Source: Spirochaetaceae bacterium (lineage in GTDB: Bacteria > Spirochaetota > Spirochaetia > Treponematales > Treponemataceae). From it: a stretch of DNA of 64,000 bases. The stretch spans positions 1 to 64,000 of the forward strand of contig JAGAAX010000006.1 of the NCBI GenBank assembly GCA_017614995.1. Reading direction: 5' to 3'. The position numbers and the translations under genes are program-made. Position 1 is the stretch's first letter; each line of letters starts with the position of its first letter. Under the pieces are notes generated by a model. That model was not told the origin of the DNA. It searched no databases and saw nothing but the letters and a program-made list of their open reading frames with translations. This document shows positions 2,364 through 20,507 of the stretch, in pieces.

Positions 2364-4445
2364 TTAAGAATTAAACTGGTCAACTTGCGTTCCAATCTCA
2401 ATAATAGATTTTTCCATAACAGAGGAAATTTCTGTAAGAGAAGCACCCATCTGCTCGATGCGGTTTGCGCCATGCGACATCTCGCTCATGCTCTGGTGCA
2501 TTTTCTCGGTTTCATTCTGCAAAATGCCCATCTCGTCAACAATTACGCGGCTGCCCTCGGTCATATTCTGCGAGGCGTCGCGGACTTCTGCCGTACTGGT
2601 GTTCAAATTGCGGAGCGCGCCTGTTATCTGGACTGAACCTTCCTGCTGCTCTGTCATGGCGGCTTTTATCTGCTGTACGAGAGAGTCTGTCATGCGGATT
2701 TCGCCCGCAAGGCTTGTGTAGCCCTGCACGCCCTGCTGTGTGGCAATAACAACAGTGTTTATAGCTTCCTGAATGTGCTTGAGCTGCTCGCCGATTGTCT
2801 TTGACTGTCTGGTTGAAGTCTCTGAAAGCTTCCGGATTTCGTCTGCAACAACTGCAAAGCCTTTACCCGCTTCGCCTGCATGGGCAGCCTCAATTGCGGC
2901 GTTCATCGCAAGCAGGTTTGTCTGCGCGGCAATGTTTGCAATGGCTGTATTCGCGTCATTCAAAAGCTTAGACTGGTTCTCAATTTCCGCAATCTGCTCC
3001 TTCAACTTAGCCTGTGTAGCCGCACCGTTTTCTGCGTCTTGGGCAAGTGTACCGAAAGACGACGCCATTTTGTCGACAGAGCGGTTTACCTCGCTTATAT
3101 TGCCGATCATCTGCTCGACGGCACTTGAAGCTTCCTGCACGACCTTTGACTGCGTGCCGACAAGATTTTCAAGCGAATGTATGCTGTCTATAATGTTGTG
3201 GATTGTCTTTGCGGTCTGCTCAACGCTCGAATTCTGTGTGGCGATGTTGCCCTCAAGCCCGCTTATGCTGCCGGTAATCTGCGAGATTGCGGCGGAAGCT
3301 TCCTGTGTACCGGTTTTAAGTGATTCACCTGCTTGTGTAAGCGACAGCTTTGAGTGCTTCATGCTGTTTATTGTATTCTGAAGCCGCTCCGAGAATGTGT
3401 TGAAGCCTTCAGCAAGAAGCGAAGCTTCAGTTGTAAAGTAGTTTCTGTATTTTTTAGAAAAATCGCCGTTTGCAATATATGTACAGCCGTTTGCAAGTTC
3501 TCTAAAGTTTCGGGATACGCGCTTTGCAAGCAGAATATCTACCACAATCATTGCCAGAACAATTCCAAAAAGAATTATATAAACCAGGCGGATAATTCTA
3601 ATATATACACCGGAAAAATCAGAAACAGGGCCTTCGACAACAATGTACCAGCTTGTATTTTTAACAGGATGAATACCGTAAAACCTATTGTTTTCTATAA
3701 ATGATTTGGCTGTTCCGTCCATATAAGAAGAACTTGTAAATTTGCTGAAAGAAACTTCGTCAAAATAGTTTTTGTTCATAATCGCAGAAAAATCATCGTT
3801 TGTAAGATACAATCCTTCGTTATTGATGATGTTAATTCTGCTGTCTTCAGAAAGCTTTATGTTTTTTACTGCGGAACTAAGCGATTCAAGGTAAAGATCG
3901 GCAGCAACAACGCCTGCGAGGCTGCCATCATTATTATATGCCGCACACGAAATGGTGATGCACAAAGTTCCTTCCATTGCATCAACATACGGCTCGCCGT
4001 AAGTAACTTTGCCATGTGTTTTGACCGCATCTTTCCACCAGTCGCGTGTAGACGGAATCCAGTCAGGTTCAGGCTGCCAGTCTGCTCCATCTATGAAAAA
4101 ACCGCCTTCTTCATAGCGCGAAATTACCGTTGCATAATAAATATCATTGTTATCACGCCCAAAATAATCTGTTGCCTTATGAATGACACCATCAAGAACA
4201 GATTCAGATGCCGATGAAGACGCAGCAGTCGCAATGGTATTTACCGATACTTCATACGGCGTAAAAATTGCAGAAACCTGCTCATTGAGTGTTTCCATTG
4301 CCTGGTTTACAGAACTGATTGCTGATTTTTTAAGAATATCGCCTGTCAAAAATGTGAATGAGACACAAAGAAAGAGCGTCGAAACCAGCATTATTCCGAT
4401 TGTGCCGATTACAAGTTCTGAGCTAAGCGAAAGATGTTTCTTCAT
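2364..4445 (-). CDS. Methyl-accepting chemotaxis protein with Cache sensor
   Basis: 693 residues. A first membrane helix (about 10-32), a periplasmic dCache-like sensor (about 45-270, with the [16 protein letters not shown] strand pattern), a second helix (about 282-303), HAMP (about 304-357) and a long MCP signalling coiled coil. The hairpin tip, [20 protein letters not shown], is the conserved CheA/CheW contact region. AGGAGA lies just upstream of the ATG. Cache domains usually bind small metabolites such as amino or organic acids; the ligand cannot be told from sequence. A chemoreceptor for a motile spirochaete; the family call is secure. Confidence 0.95.
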
Positions 4446-4551
4446 CTTGATTTTCTCCTAAAGGCATAGGAAGCCATAAATAGATATAAAAATATTTTAT
4501 ACCCACTTTATTTTTTCATCAATTAATTTTTGTCATTAAACTAATAAAAAG

Positions 4552-5708: not shown

Positions 5709-7097
5709 TCATTCCCCTTTTCCGGCTGAAGCGCACGCCGCCAGAAATCTTTGCGCAAATTCAGGATTTGAAAGAAAATAAAGGTGCGGAAAGCCCCACC
5801 AGTGATTTTCACCACAATGCACACAATCCCATTTTACGCCGGAAGGCTTTACGGCTGTGCAGCCGCTGCCGTTGTCTGTGCTGTCAAAATAATGGAATTC
5901 GTGCCCTTTTATTGCCGTGCCCGGCTCAAGAAAGCCCGGCTGTTTTCCGCTTATTGAAACATAGCCGAAACGCACAAGCTTATTTTTAAAAGTGCATGTG
6001 CCTTTTACCGCGCCTGCCATGCTGTGCAGTTTTCCGTCCTCTGTCTGCAAGAATTCGTGCAGATACATAAAGCCGCCGCATTCTGCAATTGAAGGCATGC
6101 CTGCATTTATTGCGGCAAGCACCGCTTCTTTCATGCTTTGATTTGCGGCAAGTTTTTCGGCAAAAAGCTCAGGGTAGCCGCCGCCCAGAATCAGCCCGGA
6201 AATTTCAGGCGGAAGCTTTCTGTCTCTCAAAGGCGAAAACTCAACGATTTCTGCGCCGAACTTTTCGAGCAGCTTTATATTGTCGTCGTAATAAAAACAG
6301 AAAGCTTCGTCACGCGCCAAAGCTATGCGCAAAGGTGTTTTGAGCTTGGGCTTTTCAGGCTTTGGCAGCAGATTTTCTAGCGGCACATAAGCGGCGGCTT
6401 GGGCTTCTTCTGCAATTTTCTCGATGCGCTTTATGTCCACAGTCTTTATAAGCTCGGTTGAAGCTTTTTGCACCATTGCCTTTATGCCGCTTATCTCGTC
6501 GGGCAGCTTAAGCCCGAGGTAACGGCTTTCAATTTTTATAGACTTTTGTACAGGGAAAAAGCCTAAGACCTGCACAGCAAGTTCGCTTTCAATTACAGGC
6601 TTTATCTGGCTGTAAAAAGACTCGCTCATGTTGTTCAGAATTACGCCTTTTATAAGGTGCATTTTGTCGAGCGAAAGGAAACCCGCAATTTCGGCGAGCA
6701 GAGACCTGCCCATTCCTTTTGAGTCAACAACCAGAATTACAGGCGCGCCGAGCACAGACGCAAGATGATACGCTGAAGCCTCATCTGTTGCGCCGATGCC
6801 GTCATACAAGCCCATTACGCCTTCGATTATCGAAATGTCACTTGTGTTGTCCGAAAAAAACAGCGACTTTACAAGCTTTTCGTCTGCAAAAAACAAGTCT
6901 AAGTTTTTAGACGGAATGCCGAGCACCTTTTTGTGGAACATAGGGTCAATGTAGTCAGGCCCGCACTTAAAAGCCGAAACCTTTTTGCCTGCTTCTGCAA
7001 ATGCGTTCATCAGTGCAATCGAAATCAAGGTTTTGCCGCTGCCGCTTTTCGGCGCGCTCAACAAAATCCGGGGTATTTTCAGTGTTTCCATGTTCAT
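5709..7097 (-). CDS. cbiA: Cobyrinate a,c-diamide synthase
   Basis: Glutamine- and ATP-dependent amidation of the a and c carboxylates of cob(II)yrinate. 462 residues, normal for the family. The N-terminal P-loop is SAPKSGSGKT (about 14-23), followed by GVMGLYDG and a dethiobiotin-synthetase-like fold. The C-terminal class I amidotransferase has GLILGGGYPE, the nucleophile cysteine in SIAECGGFMY, and GFPHLYF near the end. The start overlaps the cbiT stop as ATGA, so translation is probably coupled. An in-frame second Met (residue 3) could also serve as start. Confidence 0.95.
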   Translation of the reverse strand: MNMETLKIPRILLSAPKSGSGKTLISIALMNAFAEAGKKVSAFKCGPDYIDPMFHKKVLGIPSKNLDLFFADEKLVKSLFFSDNTSDISIIEGVMGLYDGIGATDEASAYHLASVLGAPVILVVDSKGMGRSLLAEIAGFLSLDKMHLIKGVILNNMSESFYSQIKPVIESELAVQVLGFFPVQKSIKIESRYLGLKLPDEISGIKAMVQKASTELIKTVDIKRIEKIAEEAQAAAYVPLENLLPKPEKPKLKTPLRIALARDEAFCFYYDDNIKLLEKFGAEIVEFSPLRDRKLPPEISGLILGGGYPELFAEKLAANQSMKEAVLAAINAGMPSIAECGGFMYLHEFLQTEDGKLHSMAGAVKGTCTFKNKLVRFGYVSISGKQPGFLEPGTAIKGHEFHYFDSTDNGSGCTAVKPSGVKWDCVHCGENHWWGFPHLYFLSNPEFAQRFLAACASAGKGE

Positions 7098-11711: not shown

Positions 11712-12829
11712 CAGTTCTCTCCTTTTTTGCACTGTTCAAGCATAGCTTTTGCGTTGGCGCTTTCTGCGAGCAGCCCGAACTGGTTGCAGTAAATCATACA
11801 GGCGGTTTCTATCTTTCCGCCGCCGCGCTTATCCAAAAAGAACATGACTTTTTCCATTATATAATTCATTGAAGCTTCAAGCCTGCCCTCATTTTTTATG
11901 TGAACAAGCGCCTCTTCTGTTGTAACACAATCCAAAACAGATTTAACCGCGTCCAGACTGCACCCAACTTTTACGGCGGCAGCGGCGAGCAGCTCCATGC
12001 GGCAGTCGCCCTCTTTTGAATGTGTGTTCATCATTCCGCCGGAAATTTTTACAAGTTTGCCGATATGCCCTGTAAGCAGAATGCCCTTAAAGCCAAGCTC
12101 CACCGCCATGTCGATTGTATTTCCGATAAAGTTGGAGCATTTCACACTCTTATCAAGGTCGTAGCCGTAAGTCTGCTTCATAAAGTCCTGCCCGTAATTG
12201 CCGGGCGTAACAGCAACAGACGTAAAACCGAGCGCCTTCTTCTGGTTCAGCTCGACGCGGATTGTGTCAATTAAAGCCTGACTGCTCATCGGCTCTACAA
12301 TGCCGCTTGTGCCCAAAATGGAAATGCCGCCCGTAATGCCGAGCCGCGGATTGAACGTCTTTTGCGCAAGCTGCTCACCTTCAGGCACAGACACCTCGAC
12401 AAGAATTCCGCCGTTATAGTCGCAGATATTGCAGACTTCCGCCACTTCGCGTTCAATCATCTCGCGCGGAACGCGGTTTATCGCGGCATTTCCGACCGGC
12501 TGATCAAGTCCGGGCTTTGTTACAGTGCCAACACCTTTTCCGCCCTTAATTTCGATATAAAGCTTTTTGTCCTTGTTTTCAGGCAGGAAACTTACAGTTG
12601 AAACAATATGCGCGCCGGTCGTTATATCCGGGTCGTCGCCGCCGTCTTTTATTACAGCACAAGACACCGAATTTTCCGCGCGTACAATATCGACAATCTC
12701 TGCATCAAAGACTATGCCTTTCGGCGTCTCGATTTTTATTCCGCGCTTTATTCTGCCGGTCAGCAGCATGTACGCTGCCGCCTTAGCACCGGCGGCAGCA
12801 CAGCTTCCTGTCGTAAAACCAAACCTCAT
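11711..12829 (-). CDS. cbiD: Cobalt-precorrin-5B C1-methyltransferase
   Basis: Methylates C1 in the anaerobic branch. 372 residues. Family signature at the N-terminus, FGFTTGSCAAAGAKAA, followed by DGGDDPDITTGAHIV, GVGTVTKPGLDQPVGNAAIN and GISILGTSGIVEPMS; GILLTGHIGKLVKISGGMMN is near residue 250. The start overlaps the cbiC stop as ATGA. Confidence 0.96.
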   Translation of the reverse strand: MRFGFTTGSCAAAGAKAAAYMLLTGRIKRGIKIETPKGIVFDAEIVDIVRAENSVSCAVIKDGGDDPDITTGAHIVSTVSFLPENKDKKLYIEIKGGKGVGTVTKPGLDQPVGNAAINRVPREMIEREVAEVCNICDYNGGILVEVSVPEGEQLAQKTFNPRLGITGGISILGTSGIVEPMSSQALIDTIRVELNQKKALGFTSVAVTPGNYGQDFMKQTYGYDLDKSVKCSNFIGNTIDMAVELGFKGILLTGHIGKLVKISGGMMNTHSKEGDCRMELLAAAAVKVGCSLDAVKSVLDCVTTEEALVHIKNEGRLEASMNYIMEKVMFFLDKRGGGKIETACMIYCNQFGLLAESANAKAMLEQCKKGEN

Positions 12830-13464
12830 CTTGATTCCTTAAGCCCATAAAGCAAGGCATTGCAGATTGCAGCGGCTATTGTGCTGCCGCCTTTTCTTCC
12901 GCTGTTAATGATAAACGGCACTTTACAGGAATTCAAGAAAAGTTCTTTTGCAGCTTCAACATTTACAAAGCCGACCGGCACGCCGATGACAAAAAGCGGT
13001 GTAAAAATGCCTTTTTCCATCATCTCGTAAAGCGAAATTAAAGCCGTCGGCGCGTTGCCGATTGCAAAAATCACAGGCTTGCCGAGTTTTGCGGCGCGTT
13101 CCATGCTTACAGCCGCGCGTGTAAGTCCGCGTTCTTTGGCTTCTTCCGCAACGTCCTCATCAGCCATAAAACAGTGAATATTGCCGCCGAAAGCTTCCAG
13201 AGCTTTTTTGTTGATTCCGGCTTTAGCCATATTTGTGTCTGTCACAATGTCCGCGCCTTCAAGCAGCAGCTTCCGCGCAATTTCTACCGCATCAGGCGAA
13301 TATTTCATCGTAGACGCATAATCAAAATCTGCACTCGCATGAATGACGCGCATAGTTACAGCTTTTTCGCTTTCCGGCAAGACAATATTTTTTGATTTGA
13401 GTTCAGCTTCAATTATCTCGAAACTCCGCTTTTCTATTTCAGAAGGAATAACGTACTCAATCAT
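12826..13464 (-). CDS. cbiC: Cobalt-precorrin-8 methylmutase
   Basis: Moves the C11 methyl to C12 to give cobyrinate. 212 residues. Typical motifs are RVIHASADFDY with the catalytic histidine, GADIVTDTNMAKAGIN, FAIGNAPTAL and VPVGFVNVEAAKE, ending in the GRKGGSTIAAAICNALLYG region. First gene of the downstream half of the locus, with AAGGAAGTG just upstream. Its leader carries a 120-bp palindromic insert and a promoter-like sequence (13613-13648), both described separately. Confidence 0.96.
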   Translation of the reverse strand: MIEYVIPSEIEKRSFEIIEAELKSKNIVLPESEKAVTMRVIHASADFDYASTMKYSPDAVEIARKLLLEGADIVTDTNMAKAGINKKALEAFGGNIHCFMADEDVAEEAKERGLTRAAVSMERAAKLGKPVIFAIGNAPTALISLYEMMEKGIFTPLFVIGVPVGFVNVEAAKELFLNSCKVPFIINSGRKGGSTIAAAICNALLYGLKESR

Positions 13465-13468
13465 AAGA

Positions 13469-13492
13469 CACTTCCTTTATGGCTTCAATCAA
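13469..13492. repeat. Left copy of duplicated cbiC leader, part 1
   Basis: 24 bases (CACTTCCTTTATGGCTTCAA then TCAA) identical to 17943-17966. On the minus strand they contain the cbiC ribosome-binding site. With 13613-13648 they form the left of two long matches bounding the 13.65-17.94 kb island. Confidence 0.9.
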
Positions 13493-13612
13493 CAACCTCG
13501 CCGCAGAGCGACGAGGTATGTTGTTCTTAATAAGTAATTGCACTCGGCTTTGATACCCTGTGTTTCGACGCAGAGCGTCGGGGTATCAAACCCTCGGCAC
13601 GAATCAACAGCT
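13493..13612. repeat. 120-bp palindromic element in the cbiC 5' leader
   Basis: Two hairpins: CCTCG..CGAGG (about 13496-13511, inside a wider AACA..TGTT pair) and TTTGATACCC..GGGTATCAAA (about 13551-13590). Both carry a near-identical GCAGAGCG core. AATCAACA occurs at both edges (about 13487 and 13602), like a short target duplication. The element is absent from the right copy of the leader at 17943-18007, so it arrived after the duplication or was lost there. Confidence 0.75.
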
Positions 13613-13648
13613 GATTATAATACAACATCAATGATTTTTTAATAGCGG
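13613..13648 (-). promoter_or_regulatory. Probable cbiC promoter (left copy of repeat, part 2)
   Basis: 36 bases identical to 17972-18007. Read on the minus strand they contain TTAAAA, 17 bases, then TATAAT, a fair sigma70-type promoter pointing at cbiC. No cobalamin riboswitch boxes are visible between here and cbiC. Confidence 0.55.
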
Positions 13649-13757
13649 AAATTTCGGGGAAACTGAATAAGAGTATAAATCATATAAAACCGATGAAAGT
13701 GATTTTTTATGTTTATTAACTAAAAATATGATATAATACTTTTGAGGAGGTGTTGAA

Positions 13758-14009
13758 ATGAGCGCGAAAGAATTACGAAATTTTGAAAATCAATTAGAAC
13801 TTCTCTCTTATACAGAACAGCTTGCAATTCTTGAATTTCTTGCGAAACTATTACAGAAACATCCAGAAAAAAACGCGGATAAAAACATAAACTTTGAAGT
13901 TGAAAAAATCAATGCTGTCCTTGAAAAAATTCCTGATTCAGAACAATTGGAATATTGTGATGTAGGAATAGAATCTGTAAGGGAGGCTTTGAAAAATGAC
14001 TCGTGGTGA
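13758..14009 (+). CDS. Probable antitoxin of a MazEF-like pair
   Basis: 83 residues, strongly charged and probably helical, with no conserved domain I can name. It starts 14 bases before the end of a clear MazF-type toxin gene, the standard antitoxin-first order. GAGGAGG precedes the ATG and a TATAAT lies at about 13734. By position and size it should bind and neutralise the toxin and repress the operon; both are inferences. First gene of the island inside the cobalamin locus. Confidence 0.75.
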   Translation: MSAKELRNFENQLELLSYTEQLAILEFLAKLLQKHPEKNADKNINFEVEKINAVLEKIPDSEQLEYCDVGIESVREALKNDSW

Positions 14010-14331
14010 AATTTGGTGGGTTGATTTTGGTATTCCCCTTGGAAGTGAAGTAGGTTTTAAAAGACCTGTAATAATCCTTCAAAACAATATATTAAATGAA
14101 AGTAATTTAAAAACTACAGTTGTTTTACCACTTACCACAAACACACTTTACGCTGATATTCCGAATAACATTCTGCTTGCAAAAGAAGTCACAGGGCTTC
14201 CAAAAGATTCAGTAACTCAACCACATTTACTTGTTCATGTTGATAAAAGACGCCTTTCTGAAAAGGTTAAAAAATTAGATTCATCTGTTTTAGATAAAAT
14301 AATGCAGGGTGTTATTGCAACAATTGAATAA
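13996..14331 (+). CDS. MazF/PemK-type mRNA interferase toxin
   Basis: 111 residues. The N-terminal RGEIWWVDFGIPLGSEVGFKRP matches the family opening RGDIWWVDF..P..GSE..K.RP, followed by VIILQNN, VVLPLTT and a C-terminal QPHLLVHVDKRRL. Family members are sequence-specific endoribonucleases cleaving single-stranded mRNA. GGGAGG inside the antitoxin gene serves as ribosome-binding site; the genes overlap by 14 bases. Confidence 0.9.
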   Translation: MTRGEIWWVDFGIPLGSEVGFKRPVIILQNNILNESNLKTTVVLPLTTNTLYADIPNNILLAKEVTGLPKDSVTQPHLLVHVDKRRLSEKVKKLDSSVLDKIMQGVIATIE

Positions 14332-14410
14332 TAATAATCTGGAACTATTATAAACTTTGAATGGGAATGGTAGTCAGCCAGTCCCAGAACGAATGAAACT
14401 ATGTTTTGTA

Positions 14411-14785
14411 TTAATTGACTTCGGCATCAGAAGCTAGCAGATTAAGTTTTGCTTCGATTTTATCAAGTCTTGAATTCAAGACTCTCATCTGTGATTGAAT
14501 GAATTGTTCCAATAAAAGAGCCGTTGCGTTAGCCTGCTCATAGTTGACTTCATGCTCATATCCGCCAAAAAGCATAGCAGGAGATACTTCGAGAACTTCA
14601 GCAATTTTGCCAATAAGAGGTGCGGATGCAAACTGTGTACCAGTTTCGATTATGGACATGTGCTTTTGAGAGATTTGCAGTTTTATGGAAAGCTGTTCTT
14701 GTGTCAGCCCTGCCTTTTTTCTGTATTTCTGAACATTTTTTCCGAACAGTTTTGGGATGAATGATTCTCCATTATCTGTGTGCAT
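14411..14785 (-). CDS. XRE-family transcriptional regulator
   Basis: 124 residues. Helix-turn-helix at about 15-70 (KNVQKYRKKAGLTQEQLSIK, then ISQKHMSIIETG) and a C-terminal predicted coiled segment (QFIQSQMRVLNSRLDKIEAK), probably for dimerisation. Divergent from the transglutaminase gene across a 155-bp AT-rich region holding TATTACGGTAATA and TATGGTAATATA, plausible operator halves. Function as a local repressor is inferred. Confidence 0.85.
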   Translation of the reverse strand: MHTDNGESFIPKLFGKNVQKYRKKAGLTQEQLSIKLQISQKHMSIIETGTQFASAPLIGKIAEVLEVSPAMLFGGYEHEVNYEQANATALLLEQFIQSQMRVLNSRLDKIEAKLNLLASDAEVN

Positions 14786-14940
14786 AATTCCATTATCTAT
14801 GCAGAATTCATTTCGTAAACTTGTATTACGGTAATAATTATCCCTTATATGGTAATATATTTTGTTGCTTCTTGATATTTTAGATGTTATTATATTACTT
14901 AATAGGTCGTAAAATCCATTTTTACATAGGAGAAATCTGA

Positions 14941-16467
14941 ATGAAAAAGAATTATATCTTGTATATGTGCACTCTCTTGATGATGGCGGTTATGCCTTTA
15001 TATGCGGCATCAATGAATGGAAAAGTCCGAAGCATCAATAAGGATATTTCTGAAAAGGTTTTTGTTCAGCCGGAAGAATATCTGCCGTCTGTAGTACAGG
15101 CACTTACTTCTGGTATATCGGGAACATCTGAACGTGTCAAAGTTCTTCATGACTGGATATGCGACAACATAGCTTATGACACAGATATATTCAAAAAGAA
15201 CAATAACATTAAAAAGCAGGATTATGTCACCGTCCTTAAGAAGAAAAAGGCGGTTTGCGCTGGTTATACAAACCTTATGAACGAGATGTGCCGTCTTGCA
15301 GGAATAGAATCAATCGGCATTTCGGGCTATTCTAAAGGCTTTGGTTATACTGGAAACATAAAGAAAGGACAGAAACCTGATCATGCATGGAATGCTGTTC
15401 ATATTGGCAATAAATGGCAGCTAATTGATGTGACATGGGATGCTGGTTTTTGTGATTGGGCGCATTTTGTAAAACATTACAGCACTGACTGGCTTTATCT
15501 TACGCCCGAACAGTTCATATTCTCGCACCTGCCGGAAGACGAGCAGTATCAGTATTTAAAAGAACCTATAAGCGTAAAAGAATTTGTAGAACAGCCTTAT
15601 GTTAATGGAAAATTCTTTGTACATGGGCTTGCATTTACAAAGGATATGCCATGCTACAACAATATTATAGAAGAATGTGCTTCGTGGGATTTTCTTGTAA
15701 AAGATTCAAATATTCTTGTAGATACCGATTTGACTACATCTACTGGAAATTTCATTACAAACTCATGTTGGGCAGACAGAGTTTCTGGAAAAGTAACTGC
15801 AAGTTTTGATGTACCTGATTCTAGTGAATACAAGGCAAGACTTTTAAGCCGCCGCAAAGGCGAAATTGTAAATCCTGTTTTTATGTCAATCGGCGAATGG
15901 GAAGGTTCGGTATTACCTTGCGCTATGGGGCTTGTGCAGGAAAAGAAAATCACAGAGAAAGAATATGAATTTCTTGAAGCTTCTTATAAGAAGGTGCAGG
16001 AAAACGGACGGTATTACATCCTTGAAGATTTGTTTGATTTGCAGAGAAACAATGCTGTTACCAAAATTCTTAAGCTCTTAAACAAGAACACAGCAAACTA
16101 TGAAGAAGTGCTTTCTATAAATGTTAAGGCTTCAAAAAACTATAAGGGATATGCTAAAGAGAAAGAATACAAAGCAGGTCGCTTTCCTCTTAAATATATT
16201 TCCCATACAGAATGCCTTAATACCAAGCTCATTGAACCAAGGTCGGGTTCTGTCGAAAAAGGAACAAAAGTTCTGTTTTCAATACAGTCAAAAGATTATT
16301 CGGGCTTTGCGTTTGTTATAAATAACAAATGGAACATGTTCACTTTTAATTCCTCTACAGGCTGCTACGAACTGGAACTTGATGTGCCTGATGTTGATTC
16401 TTTGACACTTATGGGAACAAAGAACAAACGTCAGTATGACGGCATTTTGACTTATGCCGTACGGTAG
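14941..16467 (+). CDS. Secreted transglutaminase-like protein
   Basis: 508 residues with a signal peptide (cleavage near MPLYA-ASM). The transglutaminase/protease core spans about 60-175, with Cys106 in KAVCAGYTNLMNEMC, His148 in DHAWNAV and Asp163 in LIDVTWDAG: a complete Cys-His-Asp triad. The rest (about 200-508) is probably beta-rich with no named domain. The family includes protein-crosslinking enzymes and cysteine peptidases; the reaction here is unknown. AGGAGA precedes the ATG. It sits on the island with toxin-antitoxin and regulator genes. Confidence 0.85.
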   Translation: MKKNYILYMCTLLMMAVMPLYAASMNGKVRSINKDISEKVFVQPEEYLPSVVQALTSGISGTSERVKVLHDWICDNIAYDTDIFKKNNNIKKQDYVTVLKKKKAVCAGYTNLMNEMCRLAGIESIGISGYSKGFGYTGNIKKGQKPDHAWNAVHIGNKWQLIDVTWDAGFCDWAHFVKHYSTDWLYLTPEQFIFSHLPEDEQYQYLKEPISVKEFVEQPYVNGKFFVHGLAFTKDMPCYNNIIEECASWDFLVKDSNILVDTDLTTSTGNFITNSCWADRVSGKVTASFDVPDSSEYKARLLSRRKGEIVNPVFMSIGEWEGSVLPCAMGLVQEKKITEKEYEFLEASYKKVQENGRYYILEDLFDLQRNNAVTKILKLLNKNTANYEEVLSINVKASKNYKGYAKEKEYKAGRFPLKYISHTECLNTKLIEPRSGSVEKGTKVLFSIQSKDYSGFAFVINNKWNMFTFNSSTGCYELELDVPDVDSLTLMGTKNKRQYDGILTYAVR

Positions 16468-16514
16468 AGGAAATATGACTAAAGAAGTACAGTTATTGTG
16501 AATCTTTTAAAGTA

Positions 16515-16551
16515 TTGACACTTTCACAAATTTCAATTATGATTGTGAATC
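16515..16551 (+). promoter_or_regulatory. Strong promoter abutting the start of the XRE/ImmA-like gene
   Basis: TTGACA at 16515-16520, a 17-base spacer and TATGAT at 16538-16543; the ATG is only 8 bases beyond. Transcription should begin at or within two bases of the start codon, and no Shine-Dalgarno is present. GATTGTGAATC (16541-16551) overlaps this point and ATTGTGAATC recurs about 45 bases upstream, suggesting autoregulation by the gene's own HTH. Confidence 0.7.
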
Positions 16552-17832
16552 ATGAAAGAAACAAATACTAACACAATAACTATCGGAAAGAATCTTACAT
16601 CGATTATCTCTTACTTGAACTTGTCAAATAAAATGGCAGCTGATGAAATAGGCATAAGCTACAACACATTGTCTAACATAAAAAATGGCAATTTCCCTAT
16701 ATCAGCTGCAACAATGGAGAAAATCGAAAACTTTCTTACCAAGCATAACCTTGATGTCAATTTATTATATAAGGAAAATATTCCTGTGCGCAATTTTAGA
16801 CTTAGAATACAAAAAACTCTCTCTGGCAATGAAAAATCAGCACTACGAAATACTGTTGCTAAATTGGAAAAATTATTTGTAACCATTGATACTCTGGAAG
16901 ATAAAAAGAAGTTTTTTCTTTTTGGCTATTTTGACAGATACGAATTGCCATACGGTAATATTCAGCGTTTTGATGCATCTCAGCGTTTGTATGAATTTAT
17001 AAAAATTATTTGTGAAAAAACGAGAACGCCTCTTCAATGGGCATCATACTTCCTTAATCCAACCAATAAAGAATTTTGGGGAAATCTATATTTGGGTTTT
17101 GGAAAAAGTTTTCCAATCAATTATTCAGTTGAATGTCTTGGCATTCGTATTCATTATATGTCATTTGGAACAGAAAAGGTTGAATCCTGTTCAACCTCTA
17201 TCATGGATGATGAAGCCAGAACACCTAATGTTCTGTGGGCAAAGCCATCTATAATTATTAATACAGATGCCTGTAATACCGCTGAAAAATGTCTTTTAGC
17301 ACTAGCAAAAGAACTTTTTCACATGATTTCAGACTATAATGAATATGATTTATTGTCATGCACTGACTTTAAACTGGAATCACCAGAAAGAGATAACAAT
17401 GCAGAAACTTTTGCAAAAGAGCTTCTTCTACCAGAATCTGCACTAAATGACTATATTAAAAAGCTAAATAAAAGAACACTTTCTGTAAATGATTTGAGCA
17501 TTATGAAAAATGACTTCAAAGTAGGATATGAGCTTTTGATAGAGCGGTTAAACGAGTTGAATCTTTGCAGCCTTTCACCTGCTGATTATCTTGATGGTTT
17601 ACATTCATTATATGCTGCTGATAAACCTATATTTCATAATTCAGAGCCAGACCCTGTACCAATGTCGTTCAGAGGTGAAGATTTTTTCGTATGTGCAATA
17701 CTTGCAGCTTATGAAAAAAACTTACTGACAAAAAGTGAATGTGCTGAATATCTAGATTGTACAGAAGAAGAACTTGATGACAAAAAGAAAGCACATATTT
17801 ATAGTATAAAAGCAATATTAGACGAGAAGTAA
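16552..17832 (+). CDS. XRE regulator with C-terminal ImmA/IrrE-like domain lacking one metal ligand
   Basis: 426 residues. HTH at about 10-55 (IGISYNTLSNIKNGNFPIS), a linker, then an ImmA/IrrE-like (COG2856) peptidase region: LAKELFHMISD at 251-261 and the typical NAETFAKELLLPESAL at about 284-299. In active relatives the first motif is HExxH; here it is K253-E-L-F-H257, so one zinc histidine is replaced by lysine and peptidase activity is doubtful. Active relatives cleave or release phage-type repressors; this one may only bind. Its promoter abuts the start codon. Confidence 0.8.
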   Translation: MKETNTNTITIGKNLTSIISYLNLSNKMAADEIGISYNTLSNIKNGNFPISAATMEKIENFLTKHNLDVNLLYKENIPVRNFRLRIQKTLSGNEKSALRNTVAKLEKLFVTIDTLEDKKKFFLFGYFDRYELPYGNIQRFDASQRLYEFIKIICEKTRTPLQWASYFLNPTNKEFWGNLYLGFGKSFPINYSVECLGIRIHYMSFGTEKVESCSTSIMDDEARTPNVLWAKPSIIINTDACNTAEKCLLALAKELFHMISDYNEYDLLSCTDFKLESPERDNNAETFAKELLLPESALNDYIKKLNKRTLSVNDLSIMKNDFKVGYELLIERLNELNLCSLSPADYLDGLHSLYAADKPIFHNSEPDPVPMSFRGEDFFVCAILAAYEKNLLTKSECAEYLDCTEEELDDKKKAHIYSIKAILDEK

Positions 17833-17838
17833 AAGAAC

Positions 17839-17911
17839 TGCATATAGTTTTTGCAATTATATGCATATAACTTGTTTTTATCTGCATATAATCTTATAAT
17901 TAATATGCAGA
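17839..17911. repeat. Cluster of TGCATAT motifs
   Basis: Four TGCATAT-type motifs in 73 bases just 3' of the XRE/ImmA-like gene, the last two forming a 9-bp inverted repeat (TCTGCATAT 17881-17889, ATATGCAGA 17903-17911). They could be an operator cluster or a weak terminator; no T-tract follows. Confidence 0.5.
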
Positions 17912-17942
17912 TAGGAATAGCATCTCCTTATTTTGATTCAAG

Positions 17943-18007
17943 CACTTCCTTTATGGCTTCAATCAATAGCAGATTATAATACAACATCAATGATTTTTTA
18001 ATAGCGG
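17943..18007. repeat. Right copy of the duplicated cbiC leader and promoter
   Basis: 17943-17966 equals 13469-13492 and 17972-18007 equals 13613-13648. The copy keeps the TATAAT-type promoter and ribosome-binding site of cbiC but has no gene behind it on the minus strand; it would fire antisense into the XRE/ImmA-like gene. It lacks the 120-bp palindromic insert of the left copy. Confidence 0.9.
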
Positions 18008-18121: not shown

Positions 18122-18394
18122 ATGGAAGACATGAAAAATGATTGGCGATATACGAATCAAGAGAGATATTTGCACGATATGGTATTCACATTTAAGCAAT
18201 ATGATATTCCTTATCCTGCACATGATCATTGTGAATTTTGCTGGATAAAATTTGGTGCAGGAGGCGAAATTCAGGAAGGATATACAGATGAAACAGAATA
18301 TCGCTGGATTTGTCCTCAATGTTTTGAAGACTTTAAAGACTTGCTGCTTGGTGAGTGGCATTGTACATTGTCACAGACAAGCGGAACTGAATAG
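18122..18394 (+). CDS. Small zinc-ribbon-like protein
   Basis: 90 residues with C-x2-C (HCEFCW, about 37-40) and C-x2-C (WICPQCFEDF, about 61-64), a likely zinc knuckle. The NDWRYTNQERYL opening is familiar from small hypothetical proteins but I cannot name the family. A promoter-like TTGCAA, 17 bases, TATAAT lies just upstream (about 18055-18083) and GGAG precedes the ATG; an in-frame Met at residue 4 could also be the start. It lies outside the right leader repeat and before an antitoxin remnant in the same frame. Confidence 0.6.
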   Translation: MEDMKNDWRYTNQERYLHDMVFTFKQYDIPYPAHDHCEFCWIKFGAGGEIQEGYTDETEYRWICPQCFEDFKDLLLGEWHCTLSQTSGTE

Positions 18395-18481
18395 TCCCGC
18401 TCTGGTTGGGCAAAAGCATTTTCTGCTATGCATGAAAACAAGGAAGATGTTTTAGAAGAAATTCCAGATTCGGAAATCTAA
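18395..18481 (+). pseudogene. C-terminal remnant of a MazE/AbrB-type antitoxin
   Basis: Directly after the TAG of the zinc-ribbon gene, and in its frame, 28 codons read SRSGWAKAFSAMHENKED and end in EEIPDSEI-stop. The SGWAKAF..M acidic tail is typical of MazE-type antitoxin C-termini. The DNA-binding N-terminus is missing and no toxin follows. The end overlaps the 3' end of cobD tail to tail. Probably a decayed piece of a second toxin-antitoxin pair; readthrough from the upstream gene is possible but unsupported. Confidence 0.6.
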
Positions 18482-19542
18482 ACCACCGCTGCTATGCTTT
18501 CAAGCAGAAGCTGGTTTGCGGCGTGGGTCTTTATGCCGATGCGGTAAAAGCCGCTGCCAAGCCCCGGAAAATCGCTGCAATCTCTAATGAGAATGCCGCA
18601 GTTCATTAGCTTTTCGCGAAGCCGGTTCTCTTTTTGCGAATAAAACAAAACAAAGCACGAGTTTGAGCTGAAAACCTCAAAGCCGAGCTTTTCAAGCCCC
18701 GCACAAAGAAAGCGGCGCTCTTCTTGTATGAGTTTCCGCGAACATTCTAGATAGCCACCGTCTTGCAAAGCCGCAAGACCTGCACACTGTGCTATCGAAG
18801 ACACATTCCATTCAGCAAGCTGCATTTCCACTTTTTCAAGAAGCCGCTCATCTGCAGAGAGAAGATAACCAAGCCTCAGCCCGGGCACAGCAAAAGTTTT
18901 GGTAAACGCCCGCAGAACCATAACTTCGGGGTACTCAGCCAGCAATGGAATAAATGTGTCTGTCTTTGCATTATCCGATAATTCCATGAAACATTCGTCT
19001 ATCAAAAGCTTTGTGCCATGCTTTCGGCACAATTCTGCAAGCTGTTCCATTTGGGGCAGCGGCTTCACGCTTCCATCAGGGTTATTCGGGTTAGTCACAA
19101 TAAAAATGTCAGGGCGCTTTAATTCAAGGCAGTTATCAAGCTCTTCAAGCAGCTTATCATTCAGTTTGAACTGTGTCTGCCAAGAAAGATTGAAAAAACT
19201 GAATTCTACGGAGCTTCCCGCGGCTTCAATTAAAGACAAAAAAGCGCGTTTATATCCGACAAAGCACGGTGCAAACATAAGAGCGTGCCTCACTTTTAAC
19301 GCGCGGAACAGCGCCGGAATAAGTTCAGAAGCTCCGTTTCCAAAAAGAATCTGACTGGCAGAAATTCTCAATTTGTCCGCGAGCGCAAGTTTCAGTTTTT
19401 CGCATTTTTGGTCAGGGTACTGCTCAAGAACCTGCATATTTTCAGAAACGGCGCGCCTGATGCTTCCGCTCATTCCAAGAGGGTTTATGCTGACAGAAAA
19501 ATCAAGCTCAATTTTGTTCCTGTAAATATCGCCGCCATGCAT
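18478..19542 (-). CDS. cobD: L-threonine-O-3-phosphate decarboxylase
   Basis: PLP enzyme producing (R)-1-amino-2-propanol phosphate for the nucleotide loop. 354 residues from MHGGDIYRNKIELDFSVSIN; the start overlaps the cbiB stop by one base (TAATG). Motifs: ILFGNGASELI, VTNPNNPDG, LLIDECFMEL and the PLP lysine in RAFTKTFAVPGLRLGYLLS. An upstream in-frame Met lies inside cbiB and is rejected. Last gene of the riboswitch-proximal half before the island. Confidence 0.93.
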   Translation of the reverse strand: MHGGDIYRNKIELDFSVSINPLGMSGSIRRAVSENMQVLEQYPDQKCEKLKLALADKLRISASQILFGNGASELIPALFRALKVRHALMFAPCFVGYKRAFLSLIEAAGSSVEFSFFNLSWQTQFKLNDKLLEELDNCLELKRPDIFIVTNPNNPDGSVKPLPQMEQLAELCRKHGTKLLIDECFMELSDNAKTDTFIPLLAEYPEVMVLRAFTKTFAVPGLRLGYLLSADERLLEKVEMQLAEWNVSSIAQCAGLAALQDGGYLECSRKLIQEERRFLCAGLEKLGFEVFSSNSCFVLFYSQKENRLREKLMNCGILIRDCSDFPGLGSGFYRIGIKTHAANQLLLESIAAVV

Positions 19543-20507
19543 TAGTGCACCCCCGCAAGAATTATCGCAAGCATTATCGCCGCGCAAAGACCTTCGCACA
19601 CAAAAGACGCTGCAAACATCAGCTTATTGGCGCGCTTTATGTCGGCATTTTCAATTTTTCTGGTTTCGTCACCGATAAACGGCTTATTCTCAATAATTCC
19701 GGCATAACTTGCAGGACCGGCGAGCCTTAACCCGAGCGCGCCTGCACAGGCACTTTCAGTCTGTGCAGAATTCGGGCTTTCGTGGTTGAAGCGGTCTCTT
19801 TTATAAATGCGCCACGCATTCTTAAAACTGAAGCTTCGCCCCAAAAAGGCACAGGCAAAAATCATCAGCAGGGCACTTATGCGTGAAGGCACAAAATTAG
19901 CAGCATCATCTGTTTTTGCGGCAAAAAAACCGAAAGCGATGTAGCGCTCGTTTTTGTAGGCGACCATCGAATCCATTGTGTTTATTGCCTTATACAAAAA
20001 GCCCAAGACAGGGCCGCCGAGCGCAGTATACAGCATCGGCGCAATAACTCCGTCTGAAGTATTTTCCGCGACAGTTTCAACCGCCGCTTTTGCGACTTCT
20101 TCTGCCGTCAGATTTTCAGTGTCTCTGCCAACAATCATAGAAACAGCTTTGCGGGCTTCTTCTATTGTACCATGCTCAAGCTTTTTATACACTTTCATGC
20201 TTTCAACTTTAAGGCACTTTGCCGCAAGAAGCTGATAAGTCATCATTGTTTCAAGAACACAACCCAAAACAGGGTGTACCATATATCCGGCGGCAAGCAC
20301 CGCAAAAACACAAAGCTCAACGGCTAGGCAGACTAAAAGAACAAGCACAAAACCGCGAAAACGGCTGTGCTTTTTGCCGTAAAGCATTTTTTCCAAAACA
20401 CTGATTAATTTTCCAATTGCCCTTACCGGGTGCGGAAGCCAATAAGGGTCGCCGAAAGCAAGGTCAAGCAGAAAACCGGCGCAAAAAGCTAAAAGATGAT
20501 ACTTCAC
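19542..20507 (-). CDS. cbiB: Adenosylcobinamide-phosphate synthase
   Basis: Integral membrane protein joining aminopropanol phosphate to adenosylcobyric acid. 321 residues: LDLAFGDPYWLPHPVRAIGKLI at the N-terminus, SMIVGRDTENLTAEEVAKAAVETVAENTSDGVIAP (positions about 121-155) and MVAYKNERYIAFG, all family hallmarks; several hydrophobic helices. Abuts the cobC stop directly. Confidence 0.95.
   Translation of the reverse strand: MKYHLLAFCAGFLLDLAFGDPYWLPHPVRAIGKLISVLEKMLYGKKHSRFRGFVLVLLVCLAVELCVFAVLAAGYMVHPVLGCVLETMMTYQLLAAKCLKVESMKVYKKLEHGTIEEARKAVSMIVGRDTENLTAEEVAKAAVETVAENTSDGVIAPMLYTALGGPVLGFLYKAINTMDSMVAYKNERYIAFGFFAAKTDDAANFVPSRISALLMIFACAFLGRSFSFKNAWRIYKRDRFNHESPNSAQTESACAGALGLRLAGPASYAGIIENKPFIGDETRKIENADIKRANKLMFAASFVCEGLCAAIMLAIILAGVH

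Follow-up and report, generated by a model that had tools for sequence, protein, structure and literature searches.

Integron gene-cassette arrays have been reported from Treponema and from oral metagenomes (PMC4909258). The islet described here, which lies in a 64,000-nucleotide stretch of DNA from a Spirochaetaceae bacterium (the window), resembles these arrays in being made of small modular units with toxin-antitoxin cargo in a spirochaete, but differs from them in that no integron integrase-like open reading frame (ORF) is found near it, its repeats consist of a promoter leader that occurs at this locus only, and its genes are of mixed orientation. Our literature search returned general integron and island papers only. 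The islet is flanked by cbiC and a cobC-like gene of a cobalamin locus, and the features of the region are listed in Table 1.

Table 1. Features of the islet and its flanks, with positions in the window.
Feature	Position	Strand	Remarks
cbiC, precorrin-8X methylmutase	12826..13464	-	PF02570, E=4.8e-76; intact, downstream of leader copy A
Leader copy A	13469..13648	-	cbiC promoter TTAAAA-17-TATAAT at 13642-13614 and RBS; split by 115-bp insert
Dispersed double-hairpin element	13493..13607	-	115 bp, in copy A after TTGAT(T); probable IS200/IS605-derived palindromic element
Inserted composite islet	13649..17942	.	between leader copies; absent from relatives; GC drop
Antitoxin-like ORF	13758..14009	+	precedes and overlaps mazF/pemK gene
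PemK/MazF-type toxin	13996..14331	+	PF02452, E=1.2e-23, above cut-off
XRE-type regulator (XRE1)	14411..14785	-	HTH_31, E=1.5e-8; divergent from transglutaminase
Transglutaminase-superfamily protein	14941..16467	+	PF01841, E=9.4e-16; signal-peptide-like N terminus
XRE + ImmA/IrrE (M78) protein	16552..17832	+	PF01381 and PF06114
Orphan promoter/operator palindrome	17836..17919	+	precedes Fic-family genes in other Treponemataceae
Leader copy B	17943..18007	-	uninterrupted; continuous with flank found beside cbiC in relatives
Orphan gene of older insertion	18122..18394	+	probable immunity to Ntox37-like polymorphic toxin
MazE/AbrB-like antitoxin C-terminus remnant	18396..18477	+	77-87% DNA match to tails of intact antitoxin-like genes
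cobC-like PLP aminotransferase	18478..19599	-	PF00155, E=4.5e-48; upstream cobalamin gene

The first-pass annotation had described the cbiC leader as occurring twice, with 24 + 36 identical bases, and a repeat search of the window confirmed the duplication, positions 13469-13492 being identical to 17943-17966 (24 nt, 100%) and 13602-13648 matching 17961-18007 (47 nt, 96%). Both matches are real, but they belong to a single unit, which appears split because a dispersed 115-bp element sits in copy A. With these 115 bp (13493-13607) removed, the copies align as one gapless 65-bp direct repeat in which 63 of 65 positions are identical, and besides the two mismatches they differ at the start-codon edge (GTGTCTTATG in one copy versus GTGCTTGAATC in the other). 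The sigma-70-like promoter is present in both copies, and the Shine-Dalgarno region of cbiC also lies inside the repeat. A search of the organism's entire 3.05-Mb genome found the 65-bp sequence in these two places only (partial E-values of 5.8e-15 and 3.3e-5), indicating that the repeat is neither a chance match nor a common genome-wide repeat, the latter having been named in the annotation as an observation that would speak against an island. A riboswitch in the leader was considered and rejected, the sole Rfam match in the window being a cobalamin riboswitch far off (RF00174, 29977-30176, minus strand, 108.6 bits).

As repeats are typical misjoin points and the assembly consists of 64 contigs, the arrangement might also reflect a chimeric contig joined at the leader. 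We regard such an artefact as extremely improbable, since the copies differ and their longest exact match is 36 bp, and since the window lies inside a 110-kb contig with cobalamin genes on both flanks, in the same order as in relatives.

For comparison of the junction we gathered cbiC homologues from genome collections that hold one genome per species, the comparators being mostly draft MAGs. Empty sites with a single leader, which the annotation had proposed to look for, are present in three congeners (L025, L026 and L027), where the leader is joined directly to cbiC. The match to window positions 18008-18382 in L026 and to 18008-18273 in L027 runs through one leader into cbiC, and L025 displays the same continuity over its 95 available bases. 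L026 and L027 come from Spirochaetales MAGs with a CbiC identity of 83-85%; relatives are 78-90% identical, are different species and carry a leader that is about 17 bp shorter. None of the relatives compared shares the arrangement found in the window. Copy B and the leaders of L026 and L027 are identical in 41-43 of 67 alignment columns, as compared to 63 of 65 between copies A and B, indicating that the duplication is recent and lineage-specific and took place after the split from L026 and L027. The insertion of the islet together with the duplication of the leader is specific to this lineage, and the earlier idea of an inserted island with duplicated leader DNA holds in this respect; what has to be revised is that the repeat is one 65-bp unit and that the junction had already been split by an older insertion.

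The junction itself, previously referred to as cobD-cbiC, is a cobC-cbiC junction, as the first cobalamin gene encountered upstream of the islet is cobC-like and cbiB/cobD lies one gene further. In more distant relatives (L028 of genome G005, and L037 of Treponema sp. JC4) cobC abuts cbiC, which indicates that the junction was hit repeatedly: genomes G001 and G007 contain an orphan immunity-like gene and a leader at this position, and L026 and L027 yet other, differing cargo. Three states can thus be distinguished, namely adjacent genes, an older insertion with the orphan immunity-like gene (18122-18394) and a promoter leader, and the further 4.3-kb islet of the window. The product of the orphan gene has 92% amino acid identity to its counterpart in L026 and 82% over 51 amino acids in L027. 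In genome G133 a relative of this gene follows a toxin C terminus that matches PF15535 just below cut-off, and the gene probably confers immunity to an Ntox37-like polymorphic toxin. The intact antitoxin-like genes that match the neighboring remnant are followed by PemK-like toxins in L145, L146 and L148.

A further observation concerns a contig from a different genus (L144, G272:C90, about 800-1620), whose orf90 tail and antitoxin tail are 94% identical to the window. Here, a fragment of the cobC 3' end harbors a ToxN-type gene (PF13958, E=2.7e-45), ahead of which lie repeat units and a terminator-like hairpin similar to ToxI RNA. Past the gene the cobC match picks up again, about 11 bp of sequence being shared.

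The different contents of the junction in L028 and L037, in G001 and G007, and in L026 and L027 mark it as a repeated insertion site, which would also fit a history in which the leader was first duplicated in tandem by slippage or unequal crossover, with the cargo arriving between the two copies afterwards, either at once or stepwise. This order of events is unlikely, as it needs more steps and as two leaders without cargo were observed in none of the relatives.

The islet comprises about 4.3 kb of AT-rich DNA, with a GC content of 0.31-0.40 inside as compared to 0.45-0.53 on the cbiC side, so that its composition differs from that of the flank. The plus-strand orientation ascribed to the genes between the leader copies applies to the antitoxin-like, PemK/MazF, transglutaminase and HTH + M78 genes, but not to the small XRE gene (14411-14785), which is on the minus strand. 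The first two of these genes form a candidate MazF-type toxin-antitoxin pair. The toxin aligns over nearly its full length with MazF6, for which a structure is available in the PDB (E=2.4e-18), and the antitoxin-like ORF, which has no Pfam or NCBIfam match, accompanies MazF homologues in many relatives. It is plausible that the pair stabilizes the cobalamin locus, as the annotation had suggested; its role in addiction, if any, is putative. MazEF is also present in G001, G155 and G079, in each case without the islet. In other Treponemataceae we observed MazEF homologues bracketed by CAGTGAG/CTCACTG hairpin repeats (L131, G079:C7, positions 4361-4462, 6046-6147 and 6848-6916; L130, G155:C201, positions 5943-5990 and 6910-6957). 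An integron-like cassette with flanking repeats was rejected as a general rule, the repeats in G155 and G079 being unrelated dispersed CAGTGAG hairpins or paralogous gene fragments and not leaders.

The remaining modules have their own distributions. XRE1 has 82-85% amino acid identity to genes adjoining a transglutaminase gene in G248 and G133, where the pairing is likewise found at chromosomal loci. The transglutaminase, a putatively secreted protein judging from its N terminus, has relatives in 44 of 274 family genomes, and the XRE-M78 protein, in which a motif check identified a degenerate zinc motif (KELFH in place of HExxH), is rare (5 of 274); both counts include the organism's own genome. 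In G248 an XRE-M78 gene and the same XRE-transglutaminase pair are a few kb apart, separated by a CAP-domain gene and one additional ORF. A more distant XRE-M78 relative (50% identity) is encoded on a 3024-bp contig (L154, G240:C364) that also carries a DUF4469 gene; this contig has a 55-bp exact terminal overlap, the ORF of the DUF4469 gene closes across the join, and the contig would seem to be either a circle of about 2969 bp or a tandem repeat.

At the right end of the islet, positions 17836-17919 match an AT-rich palindromic promoter in ten other family genomes, which is aligned mostly upstream of a Fic-family gene and possibly acts as an autoregulatory operator. The palindrome is conserved in Treponemataceae genomes (loci L120-L126, L138 and L139). 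No fic coding sequence was found in the window, and a fic remnant was rejected on the same grounds. The presence of a fic promoter without a fic gene indicates that the right end of the islet is ragged, cut just after the promoter. The cargo of the islet is composite, and its unrelated modules together with the ragged end point to the capture of an arbitrary DNA fragment.

In agreement with the first-pass annotation, the ORF and domain check identified no integrase, transposase or recombinase reading frame in 13469-18007. The window contains no tRNA, and tRNA-targeted integration was rejected accordingly. The XRE-M78 protein has no match in viral contigs, phages or plasmids and the MazF protein none in viral contigs, and a phage or plasmid origin was likewise rejected. 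Proteins of the XRE and ImmA types act as regulators in some integrative elements. The 65-bp direct repeats, which flank the whole cargo and occur as a single copy in relatives, might be read as attL and attR of an integrative or cis-mobilizable element that used the cbiC leader and whose integrase was lost or acts in trans, and the terminal overlap of the 3024-bp contig, with an ORF closing across the join as in a circular molecule, would fit such an element. We consider this quite unlikely: the 4.3 kb encode no site-specific recombinase, the proteins lack matches among mobile elements as described above, the right end is ragged with a promoter cut from its gene, and the leader is encountered neither elsewhere in the own genome nor at the ends of islands in the genus. 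The circular appearance of the 3024-bp contig, moreover, may be an assembly effect. Even more speculative, and very improbable, is the extended version of this idea, in which the leader is the true attachment site of a small recombinase-less cis-mobilizable islet, XRE-M78 or XRE controls excision by an enzyme acting in trans, and every integration restores a functional promoter to the metabolic gene that has been entered.

The insert in leader copy A belongs to a dispersed family whose copies are about 115-121 bp long and contain two strong hairpins. The own genome harbors about nine near-full-length copies (loci L002-L010), many copies are found in four congeners, and dozens of full or partial ones in G001, G005 and G007. 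Copies start after TTNAT and end in GTTGATT. TTGATT is unbroken in copy B exactly where copy A is split, indicating that copy B naturally preserves the element's empty site, and no target duplication other than TTGAT(T) accompanies the insertion. Being multi-copy, having terminal/subterminal hairpins and being inserted 3' of a fixed short target, the element has the hallmarks of a non-autonomous IS200/IS605 derivative, which it probably is. This assignment is supported by the preference of ISDra2 for TTGAT as target. No Y1 transposase was found in a search of the own genome; in the congener G001 (contig C23) a Y1 transposase gene (564-923) has the element's palindrome on either side (475-507 and 1003-1026). 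The element lengthens leader A by 115 nt and brings in a terminator-like hairpin at 13517-13495, rendering present-day expression from copy A uncertain.

Taken together, we favor, with a probability of roughly 60%, a scenario in which host-driven recombination or repair recently brought a foreign, AT-rich Treponemataceae fragment of 4.3 kb into the intergenic cbiC leader, the leader being duplicated in the process. The ragged end and the lack of a recombinase favor capture of an arbitrary fragment over a site-specific element. Integration would have duplicated the 65-bp leader so that copy B kept the old upstream flank and copy A stayed attached to cbiC. The route would be illegitimate or homologous recombination driven by the host, with no self-encoded integrase, and the duplication might have arisen either by fill-in of a staggered break or by a single crossover of a circle carrying a copy of the leader. 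For break repair, 65 bp would be an unusually great length of duplication, which counts against the favored scenario. As the copies differ slightly at the start-codon edge, we leave the entry of a circle open, and the differences overall (2 of 65 positions plus this edge) would be compatible with a donor allele as the source of copy A in place of a simple target duplication. Later, copy A would have received the 115-bp element, which separates its promoter from its RBS. Since the duplicated unit spans promoter and RBS, a full leader remained with cbiC and the insertion would be tolerated. The duplicated piece being just the cbiC promoter and RBS, the most economical reason for the survival of the duplication is that cbiC stayed expressible. 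Both the recombination route and the selective keeping of the promoter are steps that we infer from the arrangement of the locus.

Compared with MazEF/PemIK type II toxin-antitoxin systems (PF02452), the islet's toxin fits the family in both its domain and its MazF6 alignment and has a small overlapping partner ORF upstream; in contrast to these systems the partner matches no known Pfam or NCBIfam antitoxin family, and the pair is known here from sequence. The 115-bp element corresponds to IS200/IS605-derived palindromic elements (PATE/REP-like) in its size, its hairpins, its insertion after TTGAT(T), its copy number and the palindromes flanking the Y1 transposase gene in G001, but differs in that no Y1 transposase was found in the own genome, its mobility being putative. 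Small and hairpin-forming, it occurs throughout the genus and reshapes leader regions. With genomic islets and defense-type hotspots between core genes the islet shares variable toxin-antitoxin and immunity genes, AT-richness, a repeatedly hit junction and the lack of an own recombinase; unlike these, it is flanked by a 65-bp duplication in which the downstream gene's promoter and RBS are fully contained. As the cobC-cbiC junction in gut Treponemataceae is caught in at least three states, its stepwise history is readable, and the locus provides a clean recent example of toxin-antitoxin and immunity genes settling in a biosynthetic cluster without an own recombinase, the target promoter being duplicated and left complete. 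The islet is a clear example of how a gut Treponema-like bacterium captures a gene island in the ordinary way, by a mechanism that we infer. It belongs to a known kind, that of genomic islets that lack a recombinase, carry a type II toxin-antitoxin pair and occupy a recurrent insertion junction; the duplication of the promoter in full is a neat trait and not a new category.
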